Source: Castellaniella sp. MT123
GTDB lineage: Bacteria > Pseudomonadota > Gammaproteobacteria > Burkholderiales > Burkholderiaceae_B
Assembly: GCF_039614765.1 (NCBI RefSeq)
Contig: NZ_CP154879.1
Location: 1,302,001 to 1,366,000 of the forward strand
Reading direction: 5' to 3'
Length of the DNA stretch: 64,000 nucleotides
The translations under genes were made by a program, and so were the position numbers. Below, in pieces: positions 4,801-9,490 of this stretch (positions are counted from its first letter, which is position 1; each line of letters begins with the position of its first letter). The notes under the pieces were generated by a model, which was not told where the DNA came from, did not search any database, and was given only the letters and a program-made list of their open reading frames with translations.

Positions 4801-4876
4801 GCCGGCTTAGCTCAGTTGGTAGAGCAGCTCATTCGTAATGAGAAGGTCGGGGGTTCGACTCCTCTAGCCGGCACCA
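4801..4876 (+). tRNA. tRNA-Thr (anticodon CGT)
   Basis: The 76-nt cloverleaf includes an encoded CCA. The acceptor stem GCCGGCT/AGCCGGC is perfect, the D-stem is GCTC/GAGC, the anticodon loop TTCGTAA places CGT at 34-36, and the T-loop is TTCGACT. It reads ACG threonine codons, which are common in this GC-rich genome. The outermost anticodon-stem pair is G/A mismatched and the T-stem has G-U pairs. The less GC-rich copper operon begins just downstream. Confidence 0.97.
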
Positions 4877-5065
4877 TATCCCCTTAAAAATAAAGAAATA
4901 TTTCGATTGGCACAATCGTTGCCACATCGTTTTTTTATTTATCTGTACCTTATTTCACGTCAATGCGACCGCTCTTGAAACATGGTTTAATTCGGCGACC
5001 TTAGCGAAAAGCCCATGGACAGAATTGGGCTGAAGCAAAAACTGGGGCTTCATCGGCGTGAATTC
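4877..5065. other. AT-rich intergenic region between tRNA-Thr and the copper operon
   Basis: These 189 bp are markedly richer in A+T than the surroundings, with runs such as TTTTTTTATTTATC. A small palindrome CGATTG-GCA-CAATCG lies at 4904-4918. Promoter elements for the downstream operon must lie here, but I find no pair of hexamers good enough to call. Confidence 0.5.
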
Positions 5066-5473
5066 ATGGTGATTTCGGTCTGCGGAAAACGCGTTTCGGC
5101 GTGGCTTGGCATCATCGCCATGCTGCTGCTCGTCTGTGCGCCAACGGTCAGTCACTTCATGCATGCGACGCGCAGCATGACCTTGCCACTTTGCACGGTG
5201 GCACAGTTTGGGCATTCGTCTGCCGCTATCACCGTCTCAGTGAGCAATGCTCACGACACCGATCACGGCGCGGACTCTCATCTCCTTGATGACTGCGGCT
5301 ATTGTCATTTACTACAGCACGACGCCGTCTTGCCGTCCGTGTCTGCGGGGTCGCCACCCGTCTTGTGGCTTTTCATCCTGGCCTTGGTGCTGTTGCCGGC
5401 GCGGTGTTTCACGCCGATCGGCGCCTTTCCTGCGGGCCGACCTAGAGCACCTCCCGTTTTTTCTCATTCGTAA
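5066..5473 (+). CDS. cruR: DUF2946 copper-responsive upstream ORF (CruR-like)
   Basis: This small (135-residue) protein has a hydrophobic segment near the N-terminus (AWLGIIAMLLLVCAPTV), a His/Asp-rich middle, the CxxC motif CGYC at residues 77-80, a second hydrophobic segment and a Pro/Arg-rich tail with RAPP at 127-130 (codons 5444-5455), five residues before the stop. DUF2946 proteins of this layout head copper-regulated operons. In Bordetella pertussis the homologue (named CruR) was shown to act as a regulatory upstream ORF: copper sensed by the nascent CxxC relieves arrest at RAPP and leads to Rho-dependent termination before the downstream TonB receptor gene. Here the next gene is likewise a TonB-dependent receptor, after 86 bp. 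The function is inferred from both motifs plus context. An upstream in-frame ATG at 5015 is an alternative start. Confidence 0.85.
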   Translation: MVISVCGKRVSAWLGIIAMLLLVCAPTVSHFMHATRSMTLPLCTVAQFGHSSAAITVSVSNAHDTDHGADSHLLDDCGYCHLLQHDAVLPSVSAGSPPVLWLFILALVLLPARCFTPIGAFPAGRPRAPPVFSHS

Positions 5474-5559
5474 GCCTATCCGGTTGACATGCTGACGCCT
5501 ACATCGCGGCGACAGCACACGTTCGTACAACACGAATCTGAACGACTTGAGAATTTGAA

Positions 5560-7746
5560 ATGACGAGACTTGCACTTGCCACGCTCGTGGCGCTGATCTT
5601 TCCTGCCCAAATGGCATTCGCTGACAGTGCGGCGAATGCTCCCGCCGAGCTTGCACCGATTGTGGTCAGTGCCAGTCGGGATGCTGCCACCCTGGAGGAG
5701 ATTCCACAGAGCACAACGATCATTACGCGGCAGCAGATCGACGAGAGCCCCGCCCAATCCCTTGACCAATTGCTGCGCAATGTGGCGGGATTCAATCTGA
5801 GCAGCGTCCCAGCAACATCCAAGGATCCCACTGGGCAATCATTGGGCATGCGCGGTCTCGGGAATGTCTCCGTACTCGTGCTGCTCGATGGCATACCGAT
5901 CATGGATCCGTTTTATGGCACCGTGCAGTGGTACAAGGTGCCGCTGGCCAATATCGATCACGTGGAGGTGGTGCGCGGAGGTTCCGTCGTATGGGGCAAT
6001 ATGGCTGTTGGTGGGGTGGTCAATATCATCAGCCGTCAGCTGACAGACAACCAGACTGCCTTCTCAACCCATTACGGCAGCTTTGGGACCAAGGATGTGG
6101 CGTTTAGCCAGAACATCAAGGTCAACGATGGCCTGGGACTGAATCTGTCGGTCAATCGGACCGATGTTCGTGGCTACCCCTTGACGCCTGCCGCATATCG
6201 CTGGCGTTTTCCAGGCCGGGATTCAGTGTGGACACGCGAAACCAATGTCCAGTTGAGCGCCAGGTTCAACCCTGCATCCGATCTGCAGGGATATGTGCGT
6301 CTGGGCTATCACATCAACGATGAGAAAACTGGCTACGAGTATGGCCGCGCCAAGCAGACCACCCCGGATTTTGCGGCCAGCCTCACCAAGACGCTGGACA
6401 AAAAGAGTTCAGTGACCGCATCCGCCTGGGGACAGCGGGTGGCGTTTGACAAGTACAACGGCGCGAGTTGCTATTGGAAACCGACTGGCAAGTGCTTGTC
6501 CATGCCGCCCTCGATGCAGGAACTCCCGACGGCGCAGGCGAATGACCGCGTGGATCAGTACTACTCTCAGTACGGCGATCAGAGCTACAACGAAACCGGT
6601 TTTTCGACGATTTATTCAAGGGAGATCGGCAACATCTGGCAGGACATCCAGCTGGGCGTCGATTACCGCCGTCTCGGTGCTTCCGATAGCGAATGGATCT
6701 ACAACGCACCCACCGTGTTCGGTACACCGACCGGCACATTGGCCTCGACAGTCGAAGGCAATGGAACACAGACGTACAGCGGGGTCTTCGTGCAGACGCG
6801 GATTGCACCGGTGGACTCGCTCTTGATCACGTTGGCCGCCCGGGGGGACCGCTTCTCCAGCGATATTTCCTCCACCCAAGGTGACAACCCGGAATTAACG
6901 GGTGGCACCACAAAGACGCGGCTAGACCCAAGCGTTTCGATGCGCTATTTCGCCAGCGATGACCTGTCGTTGCGCGCATCGATCAATCGGACATTTCGTG
7001 GCCCGGGTCTGAACAATACCTTGCGATCCTATGGCAGCCCCAGTTCGACGCCGTCCATTGCAAATCCATCGCTTGTTCCTCAGGACATGCTGGCACGCGA
7101 AATCGGCCTGGACTATAAACACGGCGATCTGCAGCTGAGCGCCACCTATTTTTACTATTCGATCCACAACGCGATCCTGTCGACCTCCGGCTCTATTGCG
7201 GATGCGCCATCGGAATATCAGCGGGCCTTATGTGCTCATTTCCTGGCGGGTTCTTCGAACACCAATTGCAGTTTCTACAGCAATGCCGGCGATCAAAGAT
7301 CCCAGGGGATGGAATTGATCGGATCCTATCAAGTGTCGCCACAGCTCCGCATCAACGGGTCCTTGACCTACACCGATGCGGTGCTCACCAGCACAACCAC
7401 GAACACCCCCGTCGATGTGCAAATTGCGGGCATCCCAAAGTGGACAGGCAATTTCGGTGTCAGCTGGAGTCTGACCGAAAAGCTCCAGGTGGCTGCTCAA
7501 GGGCGTTACATCGGCCGGATGAACTACTACAGCTCGAGCACTTTGGGCACGTACTCTCAAGGCTCGAATACCGTCTTCGATGTCAATCTGCGTTATCACC
7601 TCACGCCTGCCGTCGATTTGACGCTGGCGGTCAATAACGTGTTCGACCGTACCTACACCGACAGCACATGGACCTATAACCAGCCGTATACACAGACGTT
7701 GGCCCCGCCTCGCATGGCCTATGTCGGCATTCAAGCGTCGTTCTGA
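5560..7746 (+). CDS. TonB-dependent outer-membrane receptor, probably for a copper complex (BfrG-like)
   Basis: This 728-residue protein has a signal peptide ending near AFA (residue 21), a TonB-box-like segment APIVVSASR (about 32-40), a plug domain (IPQSTTIITRQQIDESPAQS onward; LLDGIPIMDPFYG; VEVVRGGSVVWGNMAVGGVV), and a 22-stranded-type barrel that ends in a terminal Phe (GIQASF), as needed for BAM-dependent assembly. Two Cys pairs sit in putative extracellular loops (SCYWKPTGKC and CAHFLAGSSNTNC). The receptor imports ligands across the outer membrane using TonB energy. The CruR-like uORF in front implies that it is made when copper is scarce. The ligand (a copper complex, possibly a chalkophore) is inferred from context only. 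Confidence 0.92.
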   Translation: MTRLALATLVALIFPAQMAFADSAANAPAELAPIVVSASRDAATLEEIPQSTTIITRQQIDESPAQSLDQLLRNVAGFNLSSVPATSKDPTGQSLGMRGLGNVSVLVLLDGIPIMDPFYGTVQWYKVPLANIDHVEVVRGGSVVWGNMAVGGVVNIISRQLTDNQTAFSTHYGSFGTKDVAFSQNIKVNDGLGLNLSVNRTDVRGYPLTPAAYRWRFPGRDSVWTRETNVQLSARFNPASDLQGYVRLGYHINDEKTGYEYGRAKQTTPDFAASLTKTLDKKSSVTASAWGQRVAFDKYNGASCYWKPTGKCLSMPPSMQELPTAQANDRVDQYYSQYGDQSYNETGFSTIYSREIGNIWQDIQLGVDYRRLGASDSEWIYNAPTVFGTPTGTLASTVEGNGTQTYSGVFVQTRIAPVDSLLITLAARGDRFSSDISSTQGDNPELTGGTTKTRLDPSVSMRYFASDDLSLRASINRTFRGPGLNNTLRSYGSPSSTPSIANPSLVPQDMLAREIGLDYKHGDLQLSATYFYYSIHNAILSTSGSIADAPSEYQRALCAHFLAGSSNTNCSFYSNAGDQRSQGMELIGSYQVSPQLRINGSLTYTDAVLTSTTTNTPVDVQIAGIPKWTGNFGVSWSLTEKLQVAAQGRYIGRMNYYSSSTLGTYSQGSNTVFDVNLRYHLTPAVDLTLAVNNVFDRTYTDSTWTYNQPYTQTLAPPRMAYVGIQASF

Positions 7747-7772
7747 GTTCAGACATCCAGATAGAGGACATC

Positions 7773-9011
7773 ATGTTGATCGCAAAAATCCGCCGCCGCA
7801 TCAGCGTTGCTATTGGGTTTTCGGTGGTATCGGCGCTACTGCTTCCAGTTCCTCAAAGTATGGCCCAGTCCATGTCCGGAATGCATATGCAGCCGCGCAA
7901 GGCAGCGCAACCCTGCAAATCGTCGCAGCCATTAGGGTGTGCCGATAGAGCATCGGGAGCATTCTCGCCGGACGGCACACTATTGTTGGCCTGGACCCAA
8001 GACAAGAAGGTCTATTTCGCCCGCTCCAAGGATAAAGGCCAAAGCTGGACGCTGCCCTTGATGATCGGTGACGCCAGAGAAGGGTTCGACGGTGGCGGTG
8101 ATGCCCGACCGCAACTGGCCGCTAACGCCAAAGGCAGCGTGCTGATTGCCTATGACACGTTCAAGGATCAGAACTGGAATGCGGAAATCTGGCTCGCCAG
8201 CTCTGTCGATGGGGGCACGCATTTTGACACGCCAAGGGTCTTCGAGCCCGAAAGCGTGAGTCAACGGCTTCCGGTGTTGAGCATGACACCGGCAGGCAGA
8301 ATACTGATGCTTTGGCAGGACAAGCGCCTGAGCGGGCCTCAAAAGCGACCGGGGGCCTCGCTTGCGTACGCCTGGTCAATGGACGGTGGCCGGACATTCT
8401 CACCGTCTGCGATTGCGGCAGAGGTCAGCTGCGAGTGCTGCCGCATCGGCGTGACAAATTCAAGCAGTGGGGAACCTGTCGCTGCATTCCGGACGATTTT
8501 TCCGGAACAGGTGCGCGATCACGCGCTGCTGCAATTTTCGCCTTCCGGGTCGCCTCGCGCTCCGCTTCGGGTTGCCACCGACAATTGGAAAACAAACGCC
8601 TGCCCACATCACGGACCGTCCGTTTCAGTTTCCAACGACGGGACGACACACATGGTCTGGTACACCCAAGGCCAAGCTCGCCAAGGGCTGTTTTATGCCA
8701 GACTGGGCCATGGCGAGCAGGCGTTCAGTGAGCCGCAGCGCTTGGGTGGCGTCGACGATGCCTCGTCGCATCCGTACGTACTTGTGCAAGGGCAGCAGGT
8801 ATGGCGGGTGTGGAAGGCATTTGACGGGCAAGCTTCACACGTGATGCTCCAGCAATCAGGCAACGATGGTCGTGATTGGAGTGCACCGAAGGTAATCAGC
8901 AGCTCGACGGGCGGTTCGGATCATCCACTGCTGCTTGGCTATCAAGATCATGCATACCTGTCATGGCTCAGCAGCCAACATGGCTATCAACTGATCGATT
9001 TGAAGGAATGA
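7773..9011 (+). CDS. Exported sialidase-fold (Asp-box) protein with Cys/Met metal-binding-like motifs
   Basis: This 412-residue exported protein (signal peptide to about residue 32, PQSMAQ) has four Asp-box-type repeats (SKDKGQSW, SVDGGTHF, SMDGGRTF, SGNDGRDW), indicating a beta-propeller of the sialidase superfamily. The mature N-terminus is Met-rich (SMSGMHM) and the chain has Cys at 48 and 56, a CECC cluster at 220-223 and CPHH at 277-280, features expected of a copper-binding protein rather than a glycosidase. It sits between the TonB receptor and a periplasmic thioredoxin in the CruR-headed operon, and its stop overlaps the neighbouring start region. I infer a periplasmic copper-acquisition role; sialidase activity is not supported. 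Confidence 0.85.
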   Translation: MLIAKIRRRISVAIGFSVVSALLLPVPQSMAQSMSGMHMQPRKAAQPCKSSQPLGCADRASGAFSPDGTLLLAWTQDKKVYFARSKDKGQSWTLPLMIGDAREGFDGGGDARPQLAANAKGSVLIAYDTFKDQNWNAEIWLASSVDGGTHFDTPRVFEPESVSQRLPVLSMTPAGRILMLWQDKRLSGPQKRPGASLAYAWSMDGGRTFSPSAIAAEVSCECCRIGVTNSSSGEPVAAFRTIFPEQVRDHALLQFSPSGSPRAPLRVATDNWKTNACPHHGPSVSVSNDGTTHMVWYTQGQARQGLFYARLGHGEQAFSEPQRLGGVDDASSHPYVLVQGQQVWRVWKAFDGQASHVMLQQSGNDGRDWSAPKVISSSTGGSDHPLLLGYQDHAYLSWLSSQHGYQLIDLKE

Positions 9012-9013
9012 TC

Positions 9014-9490
9014 ATGAAACTCAATCGAATGCTGCTGGTTGTCGCCGGCCTGGCCGTGTGCCGACTTGCCGGCGCAGCCGGCTTGCAGTGGTACGAGGCG
9101 GGAGACTGGGCCACCTTGCGTGGCCAGCACGCTTCCGCACCCTGGGTTGTCCATTTCTGGGGCATGAGCTGCAGCCCATGCCGGCAGGAGCTTCCGGCGT
9201 GGAGCCGGTTCATCCGTGATCATCCGGATGCCAGAGTCACCTTCATTGAAGTTGAACAAGCCGATCCGTCCGCGGTGCAGGCCGTACTTGAAAAAGCAGG
9301 CCTTGCCGAGAGTGATCAACGGCTCAGCTCGGATGGTTTCGATGTTGCCGAGCGTTACGCAATCGACCGGCGTTGGCACGGAGAAACGCCCATGACTCTC
9401 TTGATCTCCCCGGACGGCCAAGCACAAAAAGTCACCGGCACCATGGACTTTGATCGACTGACTGCATGGACGGGTCTGGACAGGCCATAG
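9014..9490 (+). CDS. Periplasmic thioredoxin-like (TlpA-type) oxidoreductase
   Basis: This 158-residue protein has an N-terminal signal/anchor (residues 1-22) and a thioredoxin fold with the redox motif WGMSCSPC (Cys53/Cys56). A cis-Pro loop (ETPMTLLISPDG) lies later in the chain. The start at 9014 is preferred because AAGGA lies 6 nt upstream; an ATG at 9008 overlapping the previous stop is possible. As the last gene of the CruR-headed operon, it probably keeps the Cys-rich sialidase-fold partner, or copper ligands, reduced in the periplasm. This role is inference from context, by analogy with TlpA/ScoI-type copper delivery. Confidence 0.9.
   Translation: MKLNRMLLVVAGLAVCRLAGAAGLQWYEAGDWATLRGQHASAPWVVHFWGMSCSPCRQELPAWSRFIRDHPDARVTFIEVEQADPSAVQAVLEKAGLAESDQRLSSDGFDVAERYAIDRRWHGETPMTLLISPDGQAQKVTGTMDFDRLTAWTGLDRP

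Follow-up and report, generated by a model that had tools for sequence, protein, structure and literature searches.

In the genome of Castellaniella sp. MT123, a single 3.37-Mb contig, a short upstream ORF (uORF) stands before a TonB-dependent receptor gene. All features described here lie on the + strand of the window, i.e., the whole 64,000-nt stretch of DNA that was analyzed. A tRNA-Thr (CGT) gene found by ARAGORN (4801..4876) marks a boundary just upstream of the unit and lies outside it. The uORF (5066..5473) encodes 135 residues with a hydrophobic N-terminal stretch visible by eye, and is followed by an 86-nt gap (5474..5559), in which folding predicts two hairpins near 5490–5517 and 5518–5540, and by the receptor gene, the predicted target (5560..7746; 728 aa; Pfam PF00593, E = 2e-45, and PF07715, E = 1.3e-24). 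The receptor reaches the cut-off of none of the 25 NCBIfam families shown, and its copper role is therefore only putative. Downstream are genes for a BNR/sialidase-like protein of 412 aa (7773..9011; Pfam BNR_2 at 29.8 bits, just under the cut-off of 31.4) and a thioredoxin/AhpC-TSA-like protein whose start is uncertain (9014..9490; Pfam PF00578, E = 1.2e-7), each likely to belong to the receptor operon. A BNR gene is found near a receptor gene in relatives too, and a thioredoxin-like gene follows the BNR gene also at loci L096, L056 and L068. Met residues are plentiful at the start of the BNR-like protein (MSGMHMQP), which also contains a CECC stretch; these could bind copper.

The same operon is present in P. 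dilworthii (L096) at 72, 69 and 64% identity. In one further family (398 genomes), the top BNR match is 67% in a single genome and does not exceed 47% in the others listed, and a BNR match at E ≤ 1e-10 is absent from eight of the ten same-genus genomes searched. With a tRNA gene immediately before it, L096 (64–72%) as the one close relative found, and a BNR gene unmatched in most of the same-genus genomes searched, the operon (region 4801–9490) was perhaps acquired. Plasmid-borne relatives of the operon were considered and rejected: the receptor has no plasmid match at E ≤ 1e-100, and BNR matches only, at less than 60% identity, occur on 59 plasmids.

The uORF product matches DUF2946 (PF11162) over residues 12–130 with E = 7.6e-14 (52.9 bits; cut-off 23.7). 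Residues 77–80 are CGYC (codons 5294..5305), a putative Cu(I) site on the nascent chain by comparison with the CXXC of B. pertussis CruR (PMC9426467), and residues 127–130 are RAPP (codons 5444..5455), an arrest motif five residues before the stop codon and followed by VFSHS. The two motifs are separated by 46 residues (45 in B. pertussis CruR). In 100,000 shuffles of the uORF protein, RAPP falls within the last 20 residues in 0.05%; a CxxC occurs somewhere in 20%, making the CxxC uninformative when taken alone. Residues 59–88 contain five His and six Asp. An alternative in-frame ATG at 5015 would extend the product to 152 aa, and sequence comparison places a Met near the 5066 position in several relatives. 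The Pfam match and motif positions bear out the initial annotation, which had read the ORF as a DUF2946 protein with CGYC and RAPP, lying 86 bp before a TonB-receptor gene (86 nt to the ATG at 5560). Its assignment of the uORF to the CruR type is well supported by the family, both motifs and their spacing, the place before a TonB receptor and the retention of RxPP in relatives.

What such a uORF would do is suggested by published work. In B. pertussis, CruR senses copper through CXXC, RAPP is needed, and bfrG is controlled by Rho-dependent termination; copper repression was lost with bicyclomycin, and in vitro mapping located a Rho terminator (PMC9426467). Translated in an E. coli PURE system, CruR arrests at RAPP, and the P and A sites then hold the two Pro codons; of the variants tested in that study's peptides, RGPP is no weaker than RAPP, and RDPP and RSPP arrest partly (PMC12992588). 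The mechanism of RAPP arrest has been described (PMC10951233). Two papers from 2026 attribute regulation of the CruR operon to CruR and Rho, or call it post-transcriptional (PMC12914433; PMC13038864), and a 2023 review treats CutF and leaves CruR unnamed (PMC10502375). By analogy with B. pertussis CruR, the uORF of the window would sense copper and arrest translation, the predicted stall having the Pro129 codon (5450–5452) in the P-site and the Pro130 codon in the A-site (PMC12992588).

In alignment A1 (13 rows at 25–60% identity to the window), Arg127, Pro129, Pro130 and Cys80 are invariant, and residue 128 is A, G, D or C. A larger set of 82 units comprises 80 named contigs, the window and the second copy in the same genome; these end in RAPP (58), RDPP (15), RGPP (8) or RCPP (1), with a spacing of 46 in 82/82. 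The patterns used to find the 80 contigs, the closest 80 of 176 to the query, included CGYC but not RxPP, so the CxxC is not independent evidence in them. Among 69 picked PF11162 loci, at least four of which are also among the 80 contigs, 61 combine RxPP with CxxC (RAPP 54, RGPP 6, RDPP 1; spacing 42–49) and the other eight end in RAPP with different Cys motifs; RxPP-ending matches are favored in this set because the Pfam match covers that region. Several RAPP-ending uORFs without CxxC at the usual place (L299, L301, L302; L284, L288, L298, L300) carry CCSAGC/CCTAGC or CPFG, possibly other metal sites. In a phylum-wide draw, 76 of 299 genomes have a match, and RxPP is the ending at 23 of 29 loci; the other six are AAPP, RASP (two), QGPP, one motif-less locus and one cut by a contig end. 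Among odd arrangements, L158 and L160 show two RAPP uORFs that point the same way and are separated by about 2.6 kb, the L012 uORF has two RAPP motifs 28 residues apart, and genome G1220 has nine DUF2946 matches.

The uORF does not accompany every BNR gene. Eighteen BNR loci in the family include 12 with a receptor and an RxPP uORF bearing CxxC, three with no receptor recognized and three at contig ends; the idea that receptor–BNR pairs are always headed by CruR is false, and outside the family the association is looser. Order-wide, 60 of 399 genomes yielded BNR loci; 15 of the 20 loci fetched have no recognizable uORF of this kind (L204, L210 and L218 by an Arg-requiring pass only); L203 ends in RAPP and has no CxxC. 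In one small-genome genus (L199–L202), DUF2946-like uORFs before receptor–BNR pairs end in AAPP, unlike RAPP, whose Arg is reported to be essential for arrest (PMC12992588).

Folds, synonymous recodes and window ranking suggest a second function for the end of the uORF. The tail codons and stop codon (5455..5471) form a predicted anti-ribosome-binding-site strand, which would mask the receptor ribosome-binding region and start codon (5542..5562): the core 5461–5466 (TTCTCA) pairs with 5548–5553, and the flanks 5468–5471 and 5455–5460 pair with 5542–5545 and 5557–5562, respectively. The fold of 5400–5600 has z = −3.56, with 1 of 200 shuffles as good; that of 5471–5600, the gap and start without the tail, is unremarkable (z = −1.13). 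The probability of the core helix is 0.63–0.96 over 30 combinations of segment limits and temperature. When pairs under a ribosome on RAPP are forbidden, the unpaired fraction of the receptor binding site rises from 0.34 to 0.75, and none of 150 synonymous recodes of the RAPP-to-stop codons matches this gain or the number of tail–site pairs. The tail is the best of 188 windows for complementarity to the receptor site, whose own SD is weak, and the cognate site ranks first among 31 receptor sites paired with this tail. The codons after RAPP are predicted to pair with the receptor ribosome-binding site where a stalled ribosome would sit. As far as prediction and covariation go, this is the SecM-type arrangement of a helix that overlaps the stalled ribosome's footprint and masks the next SD.

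The pairing extends to other loci, mainly to those with short gaps. The sample consists of 152 units, of which 91 have gaps of 35–125 nt; two loci are counted twice among these 91 (89 distinct), and a single cluster at 60% identity accounts for 58. Complementarity places the uORF tail among the top 5% in 56/91 short-gap units; by cluster, it ranks there in 11/28 at 60% identity, the other 17 falling outside the top 5%, and in 6/17 at 45%. Of all 14-nt windows across uORF and gap, the one that pairs best is at the end of the uORF in 42/91 units, against about 2.9 expected. For comparison, 133 ordinary pairs of genes on the same strand were drawn from the 80 named loci and the window, with genes taken from mechanical frames under a slightly different start rule; of these, 6/133 are in the top 5% and 5/133 have the best window. 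Receptor starts in the units were chosen by rule; choosing the start with the best SD was dropped because it picked internal starts. The phylum-wide draw, made after the idea had formed, places the tail in the top 5% in 13 of 22 units and below it in nine, with near relatives apparent (L345/L347/L354 and L342/L343). With gaps of 126–300 nt only 6/35 units reach the top 5%, and the gate is therefore mainly a short-gap feature.

Strength varies among loci, and the paired sequences differ. Synonymous recodes do as well as the native tail in 0/138 cases at L164, 2/150 at L129, 8–9/150 at L054 and 11–12/150 at L065; L096, the nearest operon relative, is weak, with 38–45 of 150 recodes as good. Helices of unrelated sequence recur, e.g., CATTTCCAC with GTGGAAATG (L346), TCCTGCTG with CAGCAGGA (L338), GGTCTGA with TCAGACC (L297), and GTTTTCTCC with GGAGAAAAC in Castellaniella sp. 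S9 (L054). A near-end window ranks in the best 5% in 24 of 34 hand-picked units; for 18 of the 24, with tails of 2–7 residues, that window is centered +4 to +17 nt from the stalled P-site; within the 34, L341, L127, L279, L269, L282 and L096 misfit this placement, and three 12-residue tails have no common placement pattern. In another genus, whose DUF2946 types carry CPFC, CPFA, CPFG or CPYA, nine of 23 loci give a divided picture: the tail is the best window at L312 and L315 (a 7-nt helix of unrelated sequence), third at L316 and fifth at L313, at one start, and L310, L311, L314, L317 and L318, all before receptor-like genes, show no pairing when the first ATG is taken as the receptor start.

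Covariation is seen in alignment A3 (MAFFT; 67 rows), in which the tail–site helix and a gap hairpin together have 79.9% of cells paired, compared with 74.4% in shuffles (0/500 as high), and 15 of 17 pairs changed on both sides; sliding by 1–3 columns reduces pairing to 32–56%. These figures overstate independence because the helix columns were picked by eye and the rows are mostly Paraburkholderia, and the shuffles ignore relatedness. The tail–site helix alone has 78.4% of cells paired and changes on both sides in 7 of 9 pairs. Its outer pair is GC in 38 rows, UA in 5, CG in 4, AU in 3, GU in 3 and unpaired in 14; the two innermost positions fail to pair in 38 and 49 of the 67 rows, and relative to the consensus the window helix is shifted by one column. 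Tails also match their own receptor sites: cognate pairs beat non-cognate ones across 50 clusters (p = 0.0036 by energy, 0.0015 by run length) and across 31 clusters (p = 0.007 and 0.013).

The second DUF2946 copy in the same genome (L019:2589–3008) has CLLC and RCPP and precedes a TIGR01778 copper receptor. It shows no tail–site helix, with a percentile of 0.77 and a cognate rank of 29 of 31. A strong predicted hairpin with a T-run follows this uORF before the receptor (L019:3028–3069), and folding suggests that the second copy uses an intrinsic-terminator output.

For Rho-dependent termination in the gap, which the initial annotation had proposed, no specific support was found: the excess of C over G is modest and the terminator scan is empty there. 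The gap and the uORF tail speak instead for exposure of the receptor ribosome-binding site under control of the arrest, an output absent from that annotation. An intrinsic terminator was rejected on the same scan, which lists none between 5474 and 5559, and a riboswitch was set aside in view of published in vitro termination that is copper-independent (PMC9426467). The strongest competitor to an RNA gate is nonetheless the mechanism reported for B. pertussis, in which the stalled ribosome would shield a rut site and its copper-triggered release would lead to Rho termination in the gap, the helix being incidental. The Rho and bicyclomycin data published for CruR (PMC9426467) speak for it, as do an excess of C over G in 78-nt windows between about 5120 and 5630, interrupted by one small reversal near 5375, and C>G at the uORF end in 151/152 units. 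However, the excess reaches only the 90th percentile of both-strand windows for 5409–5559 and the 79th for 5294–5559, would also be expected from Pro codons and a pyrimidine-rich anti-SD, and leaves the cognate-specific complementarity and compensatory changes unexplained. We hold Rho as the sole output to be unlikely here; Rho may act as a second step, on untranslated RNA downstream of the gate. A codon-recoded B. pertussis cruR that kept expression and responded to copper less than 2-fold (PMC9426467) is compatible with the gate and equally explained by loss of the rut site.

It is very improbable that the window follows the logic of CutF, a DUF2946-like uORF that opens an SD-masking stem-loop with copper present (PMC9973294; earlier paper PMC8456105), so that copper would strengthen arrest and turn the downstream gene on. 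The gate described above could work in either direction, and CutF is itself a precedent for SD masking; yet the window has the CxxC and RAPP of CruR, not the CxxxC (PMC9973294) and other proline-rich tail of CutF, and its target is a predicted importer, for which a copper-OFF response would be sensible. Least likely of all is a diverged or non-functional DUF2946 copy with the receptor regulated otherwise, a notion that the receptor's sub-threshold NCBIfam scores and putative copper role would allow, but that sits poorly with an Arg-x-Pro-Pro invariant in 13 rows at 25–60% identity to the window and with synonymous sites that pair better than recodes.

The gate reading combines elements of known systems. 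Like CruR (bp2923, before bfrG/crtA), the uORF is a DUF2946 protein with CXXC and RAPP spaced by 45–46 residues near the C-terminus, directly before a TonB receptor. In contrast to CruR, the gap is 86 nt rather than 162, BNR and thioredoxin-like genes come after the receptor rather than a PepSY_TM gene, and a tail–RBS helix is predicted where the published B. pertussis output is Rho termination. As in SecM-secA and uDF_RQH-secDF2 (PMC10987492), where arrest close to the end of the uORF opens an SD-masking stem-loop, arrest here would expose the SD of the next gene; those peptides monitor or serve the Sec machinery, whereas the ligand here would be copper, bound by CxxC on the chain, and with a TonB receptor as the target there is little cause to expect monitoring of Sec secretion. 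CutF-CutO of Rhodobacter capsulatus (PMC9973294) shares the DUF2946-like nascent chain, presumed copper sensing and an SD-masking stem-loop, but its stem-loop is intergenic, and copper turns ON its target, a multicopper oxidase. ApdA/ApdP (PMC10951233) share the RAPP arrest motif, but their targets concern protein localization, not copper.

The principle is known from SecM and CutF; what appears to be new is its use in CruR-type uORFs, with the anti-SD placed within the arrest tail. The words "Shine" and "sequester" are absent from the main text of PMC9426467, and the main text of PMC12992588 contains none of five SD, stem-loop or mRNA-structure terms. In the main texts of the open literature consulted on DUF2946 (including PMC4176598), CruR and anti-SD, copper or stalling, CutF is the only DUF2946-like case found.

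We conclude that the window quite probably contains a copper-responsive uORF of the CruR type whose output gate resembles that of SecM; the uORF, motifs, pairing, placement and covariation are supported by computation, and copper, arrest, direction and Rho are brought in from published systems. In low copper, the ribosome would stall at RAPP, by analogy with B. pertussis CruR; its footprint would cover 5455–5466, complementary to the receptor ribosome-binding site, leaving that site open and the receptor operon translated. In high copper, Cu bound to CGYC of the nascent chain would release the stall; with the ribosome gone, the tail would pair with 5542–5562, receptor translation would drop, and Rho could then end the untranslated transcript as a possible second step. 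The layout suits a CruR sensor joined to a SecM-like gate, and this reading predicts a receptor that is ON in low copper.

For the family as a whole, we lean towards the view that CruR/DUF2946 uORFs of copper importers across Pseudomonadota carry a co-evolving anti-RBS strand after RAPP, and that unmasking is the primary output rather than, or before, Rho; the loci sampled suggest that the gate may be frequent wherever only a short gap precedes the next gene. Such a gate would provide a concrete link from nascent-chain copper sensing to the next gene, closer in form to SecM than to the mechanism published for CruR. If this reading holds, the gate should be recognizable from sequence as an anti-SD strand under the stalled ribosome, and the silent recoding results in B. 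pertussis would need re-examination. A single stretch of RNA would then serve as peptide tail, stop codon and RNA switch at once.
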